Source: Paraburkholderia ginsengiterrae (GTDB lineage: Bacteria > Pseudomonadota > Gammaproteobacteria > Burkholderiales > Burkholderiaceae). From it: 64,000 nucleotides of DNA. Positions within the stretch are counted from its first letter, which is position 1. Each line of letters opens with the position of its first letter. The position numbers and the translations under genes were made by a program. Location: the NCBI RefSeq assembly GCF_001645125.1, contig NZ_LXKA01000360.1, positions 212,401 to 276,400 of the forward strand, read 5' to 3'. This document shows positions 3,673-35,856 of the stretch, in pieces. Below the pieces are notes generated by a model that searched no databases, was not told where the DNA came from, and worked only from the letters and a program-made list of their open reading frames with translations.

Positions 3673-3742
3673 TGGCCCGCCAGCCCCTTGCCGTCCAATA
3701 AGAATCGTGCGGAAACGCACGGCTACCCGACGGAGACCGACA

Positions 3743-5107
3743 ATGAAACTGACCTTTCTCGGCGCCAGCGAGACTGTCACCGGCTCGAAGTATTTGCTTG
3801 AGGATACGGGTGTCCGCATCCTCGTCGATTGTGGGCTGTTTCAGGGCGTCAAGAACCTCCGGTTGCGCAACTGGGCTCCCCTGCCCGTTCCCGCCGATTC
3901 GCTCGAGGCTGTGATCCTCACACACGCGCATATAGACCACAGTGGCTACCTTCCGCTGCTCGTACGCAATGGTTTTCGTGGCCCCGTCTATTGCACGCCG
4001 GGAACCGCGGATCTATGCAACATCATGCTGCGCGACAGCGCGCGGCTACAGGAAGAAGAAGCGGACTTCGCGAACCGCCACGGATACTCGAAACACAAAC
4101 CCGCATTGCCGCTCTACACGCTCGACGACGCACAGCGCGCGCTGCAACTGTTCGTACCGCGGGCGTTTGACGAGCCGGTCAATCTGACGCATGGGCTTTG
4201 CTTCCGCTTCCTGCGAGCGGTTCATATTCTCGGCGCAGCCAGCGTGGTTATGTGCCGGAATCACAAAATCCTCGCATTCTCCGGTGACGTGGGTCGACCC
4301 GAGGACCCCATCATGCATGCGCCGACGCGGCTTGTACATGCCGACTATCTCGTCGTCGAATCAACCTACGGTGACCGCCTGCACCCCGACAGCATTCCCG
4401 AGGACGAGCTCGCGCGGATATTCAGCCGCACGTTCGCGAAGGGCGGAATCGTCGTCATGCCGTGCTTCGCGGTGGGACGCGCGCAGGAGATTCTCTACTA
4501 CATTGCAAAGCTCAAGGAAACGGGGCGGATGGCGAATGTGCCCGTCTACCTGGACAGCCCGATGGCAACGAGCGTCACGGAGGTCTACCGCAGACACCTC
4601 AACGAGCATCGGCTGACGGTCTCCGAAGCAAACGCAATCGACAAGGCAGCCATCATGGTTCGAACCGTCGATCAGTCAAAGGAGATTGCGGGACACCACG
4701 GGCCGATGGTGATCATCGCCGGTAGTGGCATGGCAACGGGTGGTCGCGTGCTGCATCACCTGCATCTGTATGCCGACGATCCTCGCAACACGATCGTGCT
4801 CGTGGGCTTCCAGGCGCCGGGCACACGCGGTGCGGCGCTGGCTGCTCACGAACCGTCAATCAAACTGCACGGCGAATACGTGCGCGTGCGTGCAACTGTC
4901 GAGTCGGTCACGTCCCTCTCGGCGCATGCCGATTATCGCGAAATGCTGCAATGGCTATCAGGTCTCGCCGATCCGCCGAAGCGGACTTTTGTAACACATG
5001 GGGAGCCCGCAGCAGCCGATGCAATGCGCAGACGTATTGCGGAAACGTTGGGCTGGCCCTGCGAGGTGCCTGTTTATCAAGAGACCGTGGAACTGGAGGG
5101 GTTATAG
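3743..5107 (+). CDS. MBL-fold beta-CASP hydrolase (RNA-specificity-domain type)
   Basis: A 454-residue protein with the metallo-beta-lactamase Zn motif THAHIDHSG near residue 67, then a beta-CASP region and a C-terminal RMMBL-like part (SAHADYREML). This is the layout of YSH1/CPSF-like exonucleases and RNA-processing enzymes. Bacterial relatives are often annotated as MBL-fold RNA-specificity-domain proteins, and their substrate is not settled. The start MKLTFLGASETVTG is used because CGGAGAC lies just upstream and the fold begins exactly there. It stands alone between FNR-type promoters, so it probably acts under oxygen limitation. Length is normal and all visible metal ligands are intact. 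Confidence 0.88.
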   Translation: MKLTFLGASETVTGSKYLLEDTGVRILVDCGLFQGVKNLRLRNWAPLPVPADSLEAVILTHAHIDHSGYLPLLVRNGFRGPVYCTPGTADLCNIMLRDSARLQEEEADFANRHGYSKHKPALPLYTLDDAQRALQLFVPRAFDEPVNLTHGLCFRFLRAVHILGAASVVMCRNHKILAFSGDVGRPEDPIMHAPTRLVHADYLVVESTYGDRLHPDSIPEDELARIFSRTFAKGGIVVMPCFAVGRAQEILYYIAKLKETGRMANVPVYLDSPMATSVTEVYRRHLNEHRLTVSEANAIDKAAIMVRTVDQSKEIAGHHGPMVIIAGSGMATGGRVLHHLHLYADDPRNTIVLVGFQAPGTRGAALAAHEPSIKLHGEYVRVRATVESVTSLSAHADYREMLQWLSGLADPPKRTFVTHGEPAAADAMRRRIAETLGWPCEVPVYQETVELEGL

Positions 5108-5446
5108 ACCCAATGACGCCTTCAAACGCCCAGTGCTTGACATGGGGCGTCAGATCAGTCGCAGCTCCGCCGCCCGAGCGGCCGCAGCGTGACTATGAGG
5201 CACATCCTCAATGAGAAATGATGAGAGATCGATGTCCGCGATGTGCGCGAGCGACTCCTGCCTCGCTCGCGGTCCAACGATAACAGGGGCGATAAGACCC
5301 GCCCCCGTTGTCATCAGCCGTCATTTGCGGCCGCGAATCTTCGTTCCGCTGCGGGCTCGACCTGAATTAACAGTCCTCGTTGCCCGCACACCTCGCAAGC
5401 TTCGTCGCAACTGCTAATCATTCGTGCCGCCTCAAGCGACGCTGCC
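5108..5446. other. intergenic region, nothing recognised
   Basis: About 340 bases downstream of the MBL-fold gene and beyond the end of the predicted small RNA. No coding frame resembles a known protein and I see no strong hairpin followed by a T run on the plus strand. Confidence 0.4.
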
Positions 5447-5512
5447 AAAAAAAGCCCCTCTCAGACGGCAGGGGTAACTTCCCGCATGGGGGCTTGCGTG
5501 CAGAAAGGCTAT
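5447..5512 (-). ncRNA. candidate FNR-activated small RNA
   Basis: Read leftward, an FNR box (5546-5559) is followed 31 bp later (centre to centre) by the -10 TAGCAT (5519-5524), giving a start near 5512. Only about 65 bases on comes a Rho-independent terminator: stem CCCCT/AGGGG (5470-5474 with 5455-5459), a 10-base loop, one C and seven U (5453-5447). A wider AAGCCCC/GGGGCTT pairing (5489-5495 with 5452-5458) is also possible. There is no open frame between. By position and logic it resembles E. coli FnrS, an sRNA made by FNR in anoxia, although no sequence similarity is claimed. The alternative is that the hairpin ends the K+ channel transcript, whose stop is 196 bp upstream of it, but that would not explain the promoter in between. 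Confidence 0.6.
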
Positions 5513-5545
5513 GGTTTCATGCTAGAACCCGCTGACATTGCAACA

Positions 5546-5559
5546 TTGATCCAGATCAG
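5546..5559 (-). promoter_or_regulatory. FNR box driving the candidate small RNA
   Basis: TTGATCCAGATCAG differs at one base from the consensus. It lies downstream of the K+ channel stop codon, so it cannot serve that gene. The minus-strand -10 TAGCAT fits the 31-bp spacing, while the plus strand has none. Confidence 0.6.
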
Positions 5560-5642
5560 CGGACTACGTTAAGCCTGCCAGACGATCAGGCTCTCAGCAG
5601 GGAGACTTGCCAAGCCTTCGTTGAGCAACTTGCAGAGTTTCC

Positions 5643-6482
5643 TCACGGAGCGTCGCGAGGGCGTAGTTGAACAACGTCATCGCCCCCTCCTCCTGAGATA
5701 TTCAACGCCTTTCGCAACGCGTTGAGCTCCACATGCATCCGGATGATTTCATCGCTCAGACGCTTGATATCGCGATGCATCTCGTGCCGCAGCGCCCGCT
5801 CCTCCTTCCCGATAAACGCCGCAGCGATGCTCGCGAACACGAGCGATAGCATCCCGTAACCCAATAGAACGACGAACGCCGCAAAGACGCGCGACGCAGG
5901 AGTCGTCGGTGCAAAATCACCATATCCGACCGTAGCACCGCTTTTAAAAGCAAGCCATAAACCATCAGCGTAAGAATGCACCCGCGGTTCAAGCCAATAA
6001 AATCCCGCACCTGCCATCGCGAGGACGCACGCCCCTGCGACCAGCAGCCACACCAGACGGTTAGGTGTAAAAAAGCTTCGTAGAGACAGAACAATGCGAA
6101 GCGCCACGAGGCACATGAACGCCATCCGGAGAAACCACTCGGCCGGTTGCCATGGGGTCGCTCCAAAGCCGGCACTGAGCCCAGACCCGATCATGATCAC
6201 CAGGTCGAGTCGGTTATGCGCGAGCCATACCTTTGGCTTTCTGCTCACGTGGTGCATCCAGGTTAGCAACGACGCAAAGCCGGCGAACATGCAAAGGTAC
6301 AGCGTACGTGCAACTGTCAGCGAGAATTGGGCGGTAGCATTCAGTTCAATGTAGAAGGCAGGTATGGCGAGGAAGCTCAACGCGCAAAGCACCCAGCGGA
6401 CGCGGCGCCACGCGCGAATCGCCCGAGGGCCATCGTGCGAGTCCACGCCACCCAGTCCGAAATTGCCGAGCTCGCTGTCCAT
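5643..6482 (-). CDS. two-pore-domain-type potassium channel, Ion_trans_2 family
   Basis: A 279-residue membrane protein. Four hydrophobic segments precede a pore region with the selectivity filter TVGYGDFAP, followed by a last transmembrane helix and a cytoplasmic coiled-coil-like tail (HRDIKRLSDEIIRMHVELNA). The filter identifies a K+ channel, and the layout is that of a voltage-gated-like channel without an evident S4 charge array. I use the ATG at 6482 (MDSELGNFG), and a TTG six codons upstream would also be possible. No RCK or cyclic-nucleotide domain follows. The FNR box at 6611-6624 points at it. Confidence 0.85.
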   Translation of the reverse strand: MDSELGNFGLGGVDSHDGPRAIRAWRRVRWVLCALSFLAIPAFYIELNATAQFSLTVARTLYLCMFAGFASLLTWMHHVSRKPKVWLAHNRLDLVIMIGSGLSAGFGATPWQPAEWFLRMAFMCLVALRIVLSLRSFFTPNRLVWLLVAGACVLAMAGAGFYWLEPRVHSYADGLWLAFKSGATVGYGDFAPTTPASRVFAAFVVLLGYGMLSLVFASIAAAFIGKEERALRHEMHRDIKRLSDEIIRMHVELNALRKALNISGGGGDDVVQLRPRDAP

Positions 6483-6676: not shown

Positions 6677-7237
6677 CTAGCAGGCGAAGAGTTGCGCGCA
6701 TATGGCAGGCGCTTCAGGAACGGGCGGGAATACGTCCCATGATCCACTCCCGTGCCGGAAGAAAATGATGGTCAACGGTCCGCTGGAAATCAACCCTTCC
6801 AGGCGGACATTGCGCACGCGGCTAACCGGATGACGGCCGAGTTGCTCGTGATGCGATTCGACACCGGGTACGTCAGTGGTCGCATGCTCCCACCATTGCT
6901 GCACACGCAGAAAAGTGTCCCGGTAGCACTGAAAAGGCCATATGGCCCACTCGGGTGCCACGAAGCGCGGGTCTGCCAGCGTCTCCTGATCTGTCGCGCC
7001 ATCGGTCTGCTGAGCCGCGGCCCCCATGGCCTCCATCGCGAGATTGAGCCGCTTGCCGGGTGAAACGGCCATATGCAACACCCAGTCGAGCCATGCAAGG
7101 ATCATCGATGCGGGCGACAACCCGCCCGTCAATGCTGCCAAAGCCGCATGCGTCGCTCGATCGCGATCATCGCCATTCGCTCTGCGTAGCGGTGCAACTC
7201 GGCCCCCGTTTTCTCGAACGAGCTCGGGTGAAGTCAT
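6677..7237 (-). pseudogene. phaC: PHA synthase PhaC, truncated N-terminal fragment
   Basis: The first 133 residues match the N-terminal part of class I polyhydroxyalkanoate synthase (PhaC_N: SPASMILAWLDWVLHMAVSP, then FVAPEWAIWPFQCYRDTFL and VPGVESHHEQL). After about nucleotide 6838 similarity stops and an unrelated tail of some 53 residues runs to a stop. The alpha/beta-hydrolase domain with the lipase-like box and the catalytic Cys-Asp-His is missing, so no polymerase activity is possible. Its ATG overlaps the phaB stop (ATGA, 7234-7237), showing the original phaBC operon. A full protein would be about 570-600 residues. Confidence 0.75.
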
Positions 7238-8064: not shown

Positions 8065-8078
8065 TTGATCTGCATCAA
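8065..8078. promoter_or_regulatory. perfect FNR box shared by phaB and ackA
   Basis: TTGATCTGCATCAA is a perfect match. It works both ways: TACAGT (8038-8043, minus) for phaB and TAGACT (8100-8105, plus) for ackA are each centred exactly 31 bp from the box centre. Confidence 0.8.
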
Positions 8079-8185
8079 CAGGCTCGCCCGTCTGGCTCAT
8101 AGACTCGAAATCGCACTGTGGTTCGCTCATCAGTTCCATACGAGGCTGACGGGCGTTTTTTCCTGATGTCGCATTGAGGGACGAC

Positions 8186-9436
8186 ATGCCAATTCGCACC
8201 ATTCTTGTCCTGAACGCCGGTTCTTCGAGCATCAAGTTCGCGCTGTTCTCCTGTCCAGAAGGCACAGCGAAGAATGCGAATGTTGAGCCGACGTGCACTC
8301 CGCTGCATCAGGGCGAAGTCAGTGGAATCGGCACCAAACCTGTCCTTCGTATCGACGGTGGACTGCTTGACGCGCCACCGTATTCGCAGCGCAATCCCTG
8401 GCGCGCGGCGCTCGGCGCGATTCTCGAATGGGTCGACGCGATGCGGCATGACATCGTGGTCGTGGCGGTCGCGCATCGGGTCGTGCATGGCGGTGCGCAT
8501 CACATGGCCCCTGTTGTCGTCGACGCCCTGGTTTTCGATGAACTCTGCACGCTGATCCCGCTCGCGCCGCTGCACCAGCCGCACAACATCGATGCCATCG
8601 ACGCCATGCGGCATGCGCTACCCGGCATCCCGCAGATCGCCGTCTTCGATACGTCGTTTCACCAGACACTGCCGCGTGTCGAACAGTTGCTGCCGCTTCC
8701 ACGCGAATGGTTCGATGCCGGGGTGCGCCGGTATGGATTTCACGGTTTGTCTTACGAATACCTGTCGATTGCGATTGCCGACAGATTCGGGGCACCCGCG
8801 CGAGGCCGCGTGATCGCCGCGCACCTCGGAAACGGCGCCAGCCTGTGCGCGATGCTCGCAGGGCAAAGCGTTGCGTCGACGATGGGCTTTTCAGCTCTCG
8901 ACGGCCTAATGATGGGCACGCGCAGCGGTTCGCTCGATCCGGGTGTCGTCCTGCATATGATGGAGGCGCGCGGCATGTCGCATCGCGATATGGGACGGCT
9001 GCTGTACGAGGAGGCAGGATTGAAAGGCGTCTCCGGGTACTCATCCGATGTGCGAGATCTGCTCGGACACGAAGCATCGGACGAGCGCGCGAGAGACGCA
9101 CTGGCGTTGTACGTCCATCGCATCGTCCGCGAAGCCGGCGCGCTGACGGCCTTGCTGGGCGGCCTCGACATGCTGGTTTTTACCGCGGGCATCGGCGAGC
9201 ATTGCGCACCCATCCGCACCCGCGTCTGTGCGGCGTTGCGCTGGCTCGGCGTTGAGATCGACGAACAGGCCAACGCGAACAACGCTCACGTCATCTCGAC
9301 AGCATCGAGCTGGGTGACGGTGGTCGTCGAGCCGACGAACGAGGAGTGGATCGCCGCGCGCAGCGCGTGGCGGTTGCTGGACCGCAGCCGCACGGCGGAT
9401 CCCGGCTCGCCCCGTATGCTATCGAGTCCAGCCTGA
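8186..9436 (+). CDS. ackA: acetate kinase
   Basis: A 416-residue ASKHA-fold kinase. The N-terminal NAGSSSIKFALF phosphate loop, HRVVHGG, the FHQTLP region with YGFHG, HLGNGAS, and GTRSGSLDPG are all present and characteristic. It converts acetyl phosphate and ADP to acetate and ATP, giving substrate-level ATP when oxygen is short. No phosphotransacetylase gene is nearby, but acetyl phosphate could come from phosphoketolase, whose gene is a relic here. The ATG at 8186 is preceded by GAGGGA, and an upstream TTG is rejected. Driven by the shared FNR box. Confidence 0.92.
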   Translation: MPIRTILVLNAGSSSIKFALFSCPEGTAKNANVEPTCTPLHQGEVSGIGTKPVLRIDGGLLDAPPYSQRNPWRAALGAILEWVDAMRHDIVVVAVAHRVVHGGAHHMAPVVVDALVFDELCTLIPLAPLHQPHNIDAIDAMRHALPGIPQIAVFDTSFHQTLPRVEQLLPLPREWFDAGVRRYGFHGLSYEYLSIAIADRFGAPARGRVIAAHLGNGASLCAMLAGQSVASTMGFSALDGLMMGTRSGSLDPGVVLHMMEARGMSHRDMGRLLYEEAGLKGVSGYSSDVRDLLGHEASDERARDALALYVHRIVREAGALTALLGGLDMLVFTAGIGEHCAPIRTRVCAALRWLGVEIDEQANANNAHVISTASSWVTVVVEPTNEEWIAARSAWRLLDRSRTADPGSPRMLSSPA

Positions 9437-11739: not shown

Positions 11740-12174
11740 ATGCGGTCGCCGATACTGGTTGACATGGATACCGCAACGTCAACCCTCGTAACGAAGGTCT
11801 ATCTCGTCGACGACACGCTCGAGGTCAGGCGGCGGTTTGCGCGTCTGCTCGCCGCCATTCCGGGCGTTGCCATTGCCGGTGAATCCGAAGACACGGACGA
11901 GGCGCTGGCAGGCATCCTTGCAAGCCATGCGGACGTCGTTGTCCTCGATATAAGGCTTGCTGGCCAGACGAACCTTGGACTGATCAAAGCACTATCCCGG
12001 GCAAAGCCGACCATCGTGAAGATCGCACTTACGAACTATTCCGGCGCCGCTTTTCGCCGGGCGTGCGAAGTGGCAGGCGCGGATTTCTTCTTCGACAAAA
12101 CGTCGGAGTTCGACAAGGCCTGCCGCACTATCCATTCCATCGTCAACGCGCGTACCGCGCGACATGCTGTTTGA
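11740..12174 (+). CDS. stand-alone receiver-domain protein
   Basis: A 144-residue protein (136 if the ATG at 11764 is used) made only of a CheY-like receiver: acidic pair in YLVDDT, phosphoacceptor Asp in VVLDIRL, and the conserved Lys in FFFDKTSEF. There is no output domain. It may act as a phosphate sink or pass a signal by protein contact for the neighbouring kinases. Neither possible start has a clear Shine-Dalgarno. It ends just before the FNR gene and is probably cotranscribed with it. Confidence 0.8.
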   Translation: MRSPILVDMDTATSTLVTKVYLVDDTLEVRRRFARLLAAIPGVAIAGESEDTDEALAGILASHADVVVLDIRLAGQTNLGLIKALSRAKPTIVKIALTNYSGAAFRRACEVAGADFFFDKTSEFDKACRTIHSIVNARTARHAV

Positions 12175-12187
12175 ACAGGAGCTGATC

Positions 12188-12970
12188 ATGCAAGTTGCAC
12201 CAGCCCGCGAAGCACAACGCCTTTCGGCGCACGCCCCTACCGTGATACCGATTCATGCCGTCACGCCGGGCAGCGTGTCACGGCACGGTACGCCCCGCTG
12301 CTCAGCCTGTTCAATGCGCTCGATCTGCATGCCGCCCGAGCTGAGCGCCGACGAACTGGCCAAACTCGATGCGGTCATCTGTACGACGCGTTCCGTCAAG
12401 CGCGGCGACACGCTCTACCGGGCAGGCGACATGTTCCAGAGCATTTACGCTGTGCGTGTCGGTTCGTTCAAGACTGTGCTCATGCACCGCGATGGCCGTG
12501 AGCAGGTCACCGGCTTTCAGATTGCAGGTGAAGCGCTCGGTCTCGACGGTGTTTGCGGCGGCAACCACAACTGCGATGCGATCGCTCTCGAAGACAGCAT
12601 CGTCTGCATCATTCCCTTCGCGCAACTCGAAGCCATCTGCCGCGAGATCAAATCGATGCAGCATCACATCTATCAGATGATGAGCAGCGAGATCGTCCGC
12701 GAATCGAGCCAGATGATGCTGCTTGGCACGATGACAGCCGAACAGCGGGTCGCGACGTTTCTGCTCAATCTGTCCAGACGCTTCAAGGCGCGCGGATTCT
12801 CGCCTGCGGAATTTCATCTACGCATGACACGCGAAGAAATCGGCTGTTATCTCGGCATGAAGCTCGAGACAGTAAGCCGCATGTTCTCGAAGTTCCAGCG
12901 AGAGCGGCTCGTGCATGCCAACGGCAAGACGGTCCACATCGTCGATCCGGAAGGACTCGCACAGGTCTGA
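12188..12970 (+). CDS. fnr: FNR-type oxygen-sensing transcription regulator
   Basis: A 260-residue CRP/FNR-family protein. The N-terminal cysteines C38, C41 and C47 have the C-x2-C-x5-C spacing of E. coli FNR, and C140 (SIVCIIPF) fits the fourth ligand, so a [4Fe-4S] oxygen sensor is expected. A cyclic-nucleotide-like beta roll and a long dimer helix follow. The C-terminal helix-turn-helix contains ETVSRMFSKFQ, whose E-x2-SR set is the one that reads TTGAT half-sites. Start at ATG 12188 after CAGGAG, and an upstream ATG is less well placed. It is the obvious candidate to bind the boxes found across this window. Confidence 0.93.
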   Translation: MQVAPAREAQRLSAHAPTVIPIHAVTPGSVSRHGTPRCSACSMRSICMPPELSADELAKLDAVICTTRSVKRGDTLYRAGDMFQSIYAVRVGSFKTVLMHRDGREQVTGFQIAGEALGLDGVCGGNHNCDAIALEDSIVCIIPFAQLEAICREIKSMQHHIYQMMSSEIVRESSQMMLLGTMTAEQRVATFLLNLSRRFKARGFSPAEFHLRMTREEIGCYLGMKLETVSRMFSKFQRERLVHANGKTVHIVDPEGLAQV

Positions 12971-35740: not shown

Positions 35741-35791
35741 TCCCTGAATCTTGCGTGAGACGGGGTGAGATGGCGGGTTCGACCGAAAAAA

Positions 35792-35838
35792 CCCGGCGAT
35801 TCTCCTGAATAACGGAGAATCGCCGGGCAGTTTTTTTT
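35792..35838. terminator. bidirectional terminator between pqqE and the cytochrome fusion gene
   Basis: A perfect 14-bp stem (35792-35805 with 35814-35827), 8-base loop, then eight T after three bases on the plus strand. Six A just before the stem supply the T run for the minus strand. Confidence 0.9.
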
Positions 35839-35856
35839 AACGCGCGTAAATCGGGA

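Follow-up and report, generated by a model that had tools for sequence, protein, structure and literature searches.

A candidate FNR-dependent promoter and a predicted 66-nt RNA behind a K+ channel gene of Paraburkholderia

A candidate FNR promoter was found in a gene-free spacer within a low-oxygen gene cluster of Paraburkholderia type, with a likely transcription stop about 66 bases further on, and a very short RNA may be made from it under oxygen limitation. The stretch of P. ginsengiterrae DNA analysed, here called the window, is 64,000 nt long. An earlier, sequence-only reading of the window had placed an FNR-activated small RNA next to a K+ channel gene, and the location is correct, an Ion_trans_2 gene lying upstream on the same strand (Table 1). 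The explanation that we are slightly more inclined to accept than to doubt is a genuine class II FNR-dependent promoter behind the K+ channel gene, from which a non-coding RNA of 66 nt is transcribed up to an intrinsic terminator. Box, spacing, -10, a hairpin with U7 and the lack of any frame of at least 100 aa under the promoter are read directly from the DNA.

Table 1 Features of the spacer and of the surrounding locus. Strict-pattern sites are matches to TGATNNNNATCA-N22-TANNNT.
Feature	Position	Strand	Remarks
FNR box CTGATctggATCAA	5559-5546	minus	One mismatch to TTGATNNNNATCAA; centre ~41 bases upstream of predicted +1
-10 hexamer TAGCAT	5524-5519	minus	21 bases past the FNR box
Predicted non-coding transcript, 66 nt	5512-5447	minus	Start inferred from the -10
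Intrinsic-terminator-like hairpin AAGCCCC...GGGGCUU with U7 tail (5453-5447)	5495-5447	minus	Folding
Decayed two-FNR-box promoter block	5440-5348	minus	Resembles block downstream of channel gene in G107 (L043)
Phosphate acetyltransferase fragment, 54 aa	5314-5150	minus	Model positions 44-91, E 5e-12
Beta-CASP metallo-hydrolase	3707-5107	plus	Next intact gene on the other side of the candidate
K+ channel gene (Ion_trans_2)	5643-6482	minus	Upstream of the candidate; ORF from TTG reaches 6500
FNR-like box of channel gene, CTGATCTGCGTCAA	6624-6611	minus	Two mismatches; 21 bases, then TAGCCT
PhaC (poly-beta-hydroxybutyrate polymerase), cut to 186-aa frame	6677-7237	minus	~135 aa align
FNR-family regulator, CxxCx5C cysteines, likely activator	12164-12970	plus	232.5 bits against curated Fnr cut-off of 228 bits
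Strict-pattern sites	candidate; divergent pair 8065/8078 (acetate kinase, short-chain dehydrogenase); 25902		Genome-wide pattern search

The promoter and its regulator

On the minus strand, the interval 5559-5447 consists of the FNR box, 21 bases, TAGCAT, six bases and then, from A5512, 66 bases ending in GGGGCTTTTTTT. A5512 was taken as the predicted +1 by rule from the position of TAGCAT. The box, earlier called near-perfect, has a single mismatch. The entire window was scanned for boxes with at most one mismatch combined with a -10 of at least 4/6 matches, gaps of 20-24 bases being allowed; nine pairs were obtained, against a mean of 0.085 expected from 200 Markov sequences, and every one of them has a gap of 21. 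The -10 described earlier as correctly spaced shares the spacing of all nine window pairs, and in relatives, too, most FNR-like boxes near the channel gene have this gap. The window holds about twice the expected number of boxes with up to two mismatches (36 versus 16.6).

The strict pattern given in Table 1 occurs four times in the 8.53-Mb genome of the organism, all four within the window, and its reversed form, used as a control, is absent from the whole genome. The three strict sites other than the candidate all stand at frames of at least 100 aa. A frame of that size lies within 700 bases of the start at seven of the nine window FNR promoters, the candidate at 5559 having none and the promoter at 2210 (minus) preceding a 62-aa frame. 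This last frame (1932-2120, minus), directly behind its promoter, contains a hydrophobic stretch and possibly encodes a small membrane protein. In the leader of the acetate kinase gene ackA (8065-8188, plus), a possible leader terminator lies downstream of the FNR promoter, a hairpin with T6 (-13.1 kcal/mol) whose end is 24 bases away from the ATG at 8186.

An FNR protein is encoded in the genome, one frame scoring above the curated cut-off, and that frame is in the window (Table 1); its CxxCx5C motif holds what we take to be the Fe-S cysteines. A second match elsewhere in the genome reaches 226.5 of the 228 bits and has one stop inside the match. With its box centred near -41 and a -10 at fixed spacing from it, the candidate has the arrangement of a class II FNR-dependent promoter, relative to the inferred start; in the class II fnr1 promoter of Herbaspirillum the site is reported to be centred at -42 (PMC5934665). 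Because of the spacing, the genome-wide rarity of the pattern and the FNR gene in the same locus, the candidate promoter is taken as real, and the predicted activation by FNR gains support from the same three observations.

The same FNR box is followed on the plus strand, also at 21 bases, by GACGAT (5581-5586), a weak -10 with 3/6 matches, and this site could drive antisense transcription across the end of the channel gene. The channel gene itself has an FNR-like box (Table 1), and similar boxes with TAGCCT recur at the channel genes of relatives. A relative of the channel gene is present at 13 named loci, 11 of them from Paraburkholderia. The candidate was considered as a duplicate of the channel promoter, boxes and -10s being alike, and this origin was rejected when 30 of 200 shuffles reached the alignment score.

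The predicted RNA and its terminator

With +1 at A5512 and the T7 run at 5453-5447, the length of the predicted RNA is 66 nt. The canonical AAGCCCC/GGGGCUU stem encloses a large structured loop with an inner hairpin (-16.9 kcal/mol), and an alternative fold that recruits the 5' end of the RNA is slightly better (-19.0 kcal/mol); either fold sets the stem against the U tract. A G+C-rich hairpin directly before a U tract, as in an intrinsic terminator, is thus present, with -16.8 to -18.6 kcal/mol and U7. It is absent from the list produced by a simple terminator scan of the window, probably because that scan allows loops of 3-8 only. Of the Rho-independent terminator with seven U proposed earlier, the hairpin and the U7 stand, in a less ideal form with a large loop.

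At the 15 runs of T6 or longer in the window, the candidate hairpin ranks second, the only stronger one being that at 35791. The region 35750-35840, which can form this perfect and very strong hairpin (-31.6 kcal/mol), has T runs on either strand and is likely a two-way terminator. Among 4000 random 110-nt stretches with the dinucleotides of the spacer, none combined T7 with a hairpin of -16 kcal/mol or below, a threshold set after the candidate had been seen, and T7 alone occurred in 0.5% of such stretches.

The statement that no reading frame lies inside the unit proved nearly right, the exception being one 8-codon ATG frame (5487-5461, minus) inside the hairpin, with no visible ribosome-binding site. 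All parts of the complete transcription unit that had been proposed are present on the minus strand, and the short terminated transcript predicted from them is plausible. At low oxygen, an Fe-S FNR protein, such as the one encoded in the window, would bind 5559-5546, RNA polymerase would start near A5512, and transcription would stop in the U tract ending at 5447.

Taken as a whole, the RNA has no more structure than its shuffled versions (z -0.28), 65 of 200 of these having a fold at least as good. Its positions 4-11 are unpaired with a probability of only 19-34% and compete for the terminator arm, which pairs with the 5' end with a mean probability of 0.47, so that the 5' end is largely paired.

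A rearranged spacer and other explanations

A search of the other 144 genomes of the genus did not recover the DNA of the unit, save for one match of about 50 bases (G067) that was judged by eye to be a chance match within a coding region, and in a 399-genome sample of the family only matches of 20-30 bases, in seven other genomes, were obtained. The combination of box, -10 and GCTTTTTT at 40-70 bases is present in one of the 145 genus genomes, that of this organism; as the reversed control also gives one, this count alone is no evidence. The design of box, -10 and terminator is not common in the genus. A plasmid collection gave no match, and in Rfam nothing reached the gathering score in the window, where four matches far under threshold fall in 5380-5660, none of them FnrS. 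Conservation, which the earlier reading had proposed to look for in related species, was seen neither in the genus (145 genomes, that of this organism among them) nor in the family sample. By these comparisons the unit is lineage-specific, and its origin probably lies in the rearrangement by which the channel gene came to stand here.

That rearrangement, with its remnants, is absent from the sequence-only reading. Two syntenic relatives, G050 and G051, were located through acetate kinase, and in both of them matches to the metallo-hydrolase, phosphate acetyltransferase, PhaC, the dehydrogenase and acetate kinase follow in the same order, with no channel match among these five. At the same place in G050, phosphate acetyltransferase has an open frame of 356 codons and that of PhaC extends as far as 5770; G051 has a stretch matching the phosphate acetyltransferase fragment. 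In the window, the channel gene stands between the fragment of phosphate acetyltransferase and that of PhaC. Pfam gave no match for the former fragment (5314-5150). No phosphate acetyltransferase match over the model cut-off was found in the organism's own genome, where a 358-codon frame on contig C223 is a distant relative (60 bits). In G106 (L069), phosphate acetyltransferase is intact and a likely FNR promoter stands upstream of it.

Between the U tract and the decayed promoter block (5440-5348) there are six bases. The alignment of this block with its counterpart in G107 scores 53, which none of 1000 resampled sequences reaches; the G107 block carries two FNR boxes, and both are spoiled in the window copy. 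In 15 other relatives no score above shuffles was obtained for the block, though the alignments of L041 and L042 fall on the same place. The DNA from the candidate to the phosphate acetyltransferase fragment contains no recognisable phosphate acetyltransferase in any frame and resembles another block. A 35-aa CxxC frame in this region (5421-5317) was rejected as a hidden gene, with matches in 16 of 300 genomes (E <=0.1, own included) and a best non-self E of 0.004. Homology of 5642-5447 to channel downstream regions was likewise rejected after comparison with 15 relatives on both strands: the best of the 30 scores (L034, same strand) is unremarkable, since one of 60 resampled sequences reaches it and 30 comparisons were made.

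The candidate thus adjoins a probable breakpoint, with its promoter intact and decaying DNA around it. In a patch so rearranged, with remnants of genes and of a promoter, an orphan relic has to be taken seriously as an alternative: the FNR promoter would have survived from a gene or promoter region that was lost in the rearrangement of the locus, and any short transcript would be a functionless by-product. The phosphate acetyltransferase fragment and the two-box remnant in the spacer speak for this explanation, as do the shortened PhaC, compared with the long open frames of G050, and the lack of conservation of the unit. The promoter, however, is intact in box, spacing and -10 while the neighbouring DNA is in decay, a terminator 66 bases on is unexpected in view of the random stretches, and neither in the genus genomes nor in the family sample was a relative found with this very DNA before a gene. 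A relic is considered unlikely, but it is the main rival.

The hairpin might also do no more than end the channel mRNA, with a promoter that is weak or inactive. Channel gene and hairpin share one strand, the last U is 196 bases past the channel stop codon and no other terminator was detected between them by the scans; a terminator common to the upstream mRNA, as in small RNAs derived from 3' UTRs, is compatible with this layout. The downstream sides of channel genes in relatives argue otherwise. From 58 channel loci, a subset of the channel matches found, 36 distinct stretches were retained after those sharing the same first 60 bases or shorter than 290 bases had been dropped, and a terminator-like site on the same strand within 300 bases was seen in only one of the 36, as a weak T5 hairpin; five of the 36 have such a site on the opposite strand. 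The candidate stop is therefore not a standing part of the channel gene, although it can still end a read-through channel mRNA. As the promoter is, in addition, one of only four strict patterns in the genome, an origin of the hairpin in the channel mRNA alone is improbable.

Last, promoter and T-rich stretch might once have formed a regulated 5' leader, possibly with an attenuator, of phosphate acetyltransferase or another gene. For acetate kinase, part of this locus, FNR promoter and start are likewise separated by a hairpin with T6, and the intact gene of G106 is preceded by TTGAGTTAGATCAA, 21 bases and TACTAT, located at -261 from the point matching the first codon of the fragment (-245 for the candidate), with a T5 run shortly before the start codon. 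This leader, however, is not similar to the candidate in sequence, its score being equalled by 119 of 200 resampled sequences, and its T5 run is not preceded by a hairpin. A box with up to two mismatches lies within 450 bases in six of 29 intact relatives, with a fitting -10 in G106 only; L052 has a box at the matching distance without a -10, and G050 and G051 have no such box there. Neither L052, lacking the -10, nor L069 of G106, lacking the similarity, was thus retained as the source of the promoter among intact phosphate acetyltransferase genes. In G050 and G051 the promoter matching that of ackA precedes a universal-stress-protein-like frame instead, and the T runs in the leader before this gene leave no room for a hairpin. 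With the DNA between candidate and fragment resembling another block, and no relative in 145 genomes having the same leader before a gene, a former leader is very improbable.

A possible role in regulation

If the RNA of the preferred class II promoter acts at all, the likeliest form, by analogy, would be a small base-pairing RNA of the Hfq type, which would share its terminator with any read-through channel mRNA. In a target scan of 13 gene starts of the window, some of them chosen by eye, the duplex energies were no better than those of shuffles, 51 of 200 shuffles being as good as the best duplex. The likeness to FnrS of E. coli in logic and size, drawn earlier, did not gain support at the level of a regulatory RNA: conservation, an Rfam match at threshold and a target signal at the 13 gene starts were all lacking, and in place of a conserved accessible pairing region there is a mostly paired 5' end with no homologue found. 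An FNR-activated promoter without a protein gene and a short RNA, both predicted for the candidate, are what it has in common with FnrS; it differs in having no Rfam relation to FnrS at threshold and no target signal at the window gene starts. FnrS ends at an intrinsic terminator and is about twice as long as the 66-nt RNA, and an FNR-dependent small RNA also exists in Neisseria.

FNR-dependent small RNAs are known in enterics, where FnrS is described as an FNR-activated, separate gene and NarS of Salmonella as a 3' UTR-derived RNA, controlled by FNR and NarL and released by RNase E from the narK mRNA (PMC8139620). The candidate resembles NarS in its place behind a membrane transport gene and, by prediction only, in its response to FNR, and differs from it in the separate promoter predicted for it, NarS being cut from narK mRNA. 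An MBL-fold protein and universal stress proteins, in a low-oxygen context, are what the locus has in common with the low-oxygen-activated (lxa) locus of another organism, Burkholderia cenocepacia (PMC6127331, PMC9104464). Some B. cenocepacia RNAs (RIT1, RIT10 and RIT81) are listed in a review table as rising at low oxygen (PMC10987360). In the portions of the literature returned by our search, no FNR-dependent small RNA was described in Burkholderia or Paraburkholderia.

A bolder reading, which we regard as doubtful, is that the rearrangement left an intact FNR promoter before a terminator and so gave rise to a newborn oxygen-controlled small RNA, 66 nt long, restricted to one lineage, made at low oxygen and regulating genes. 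If confined to one lineage and driven by a strong promoter, such a unit would show cleanly how promoter remnants can give rise to small RNAs.
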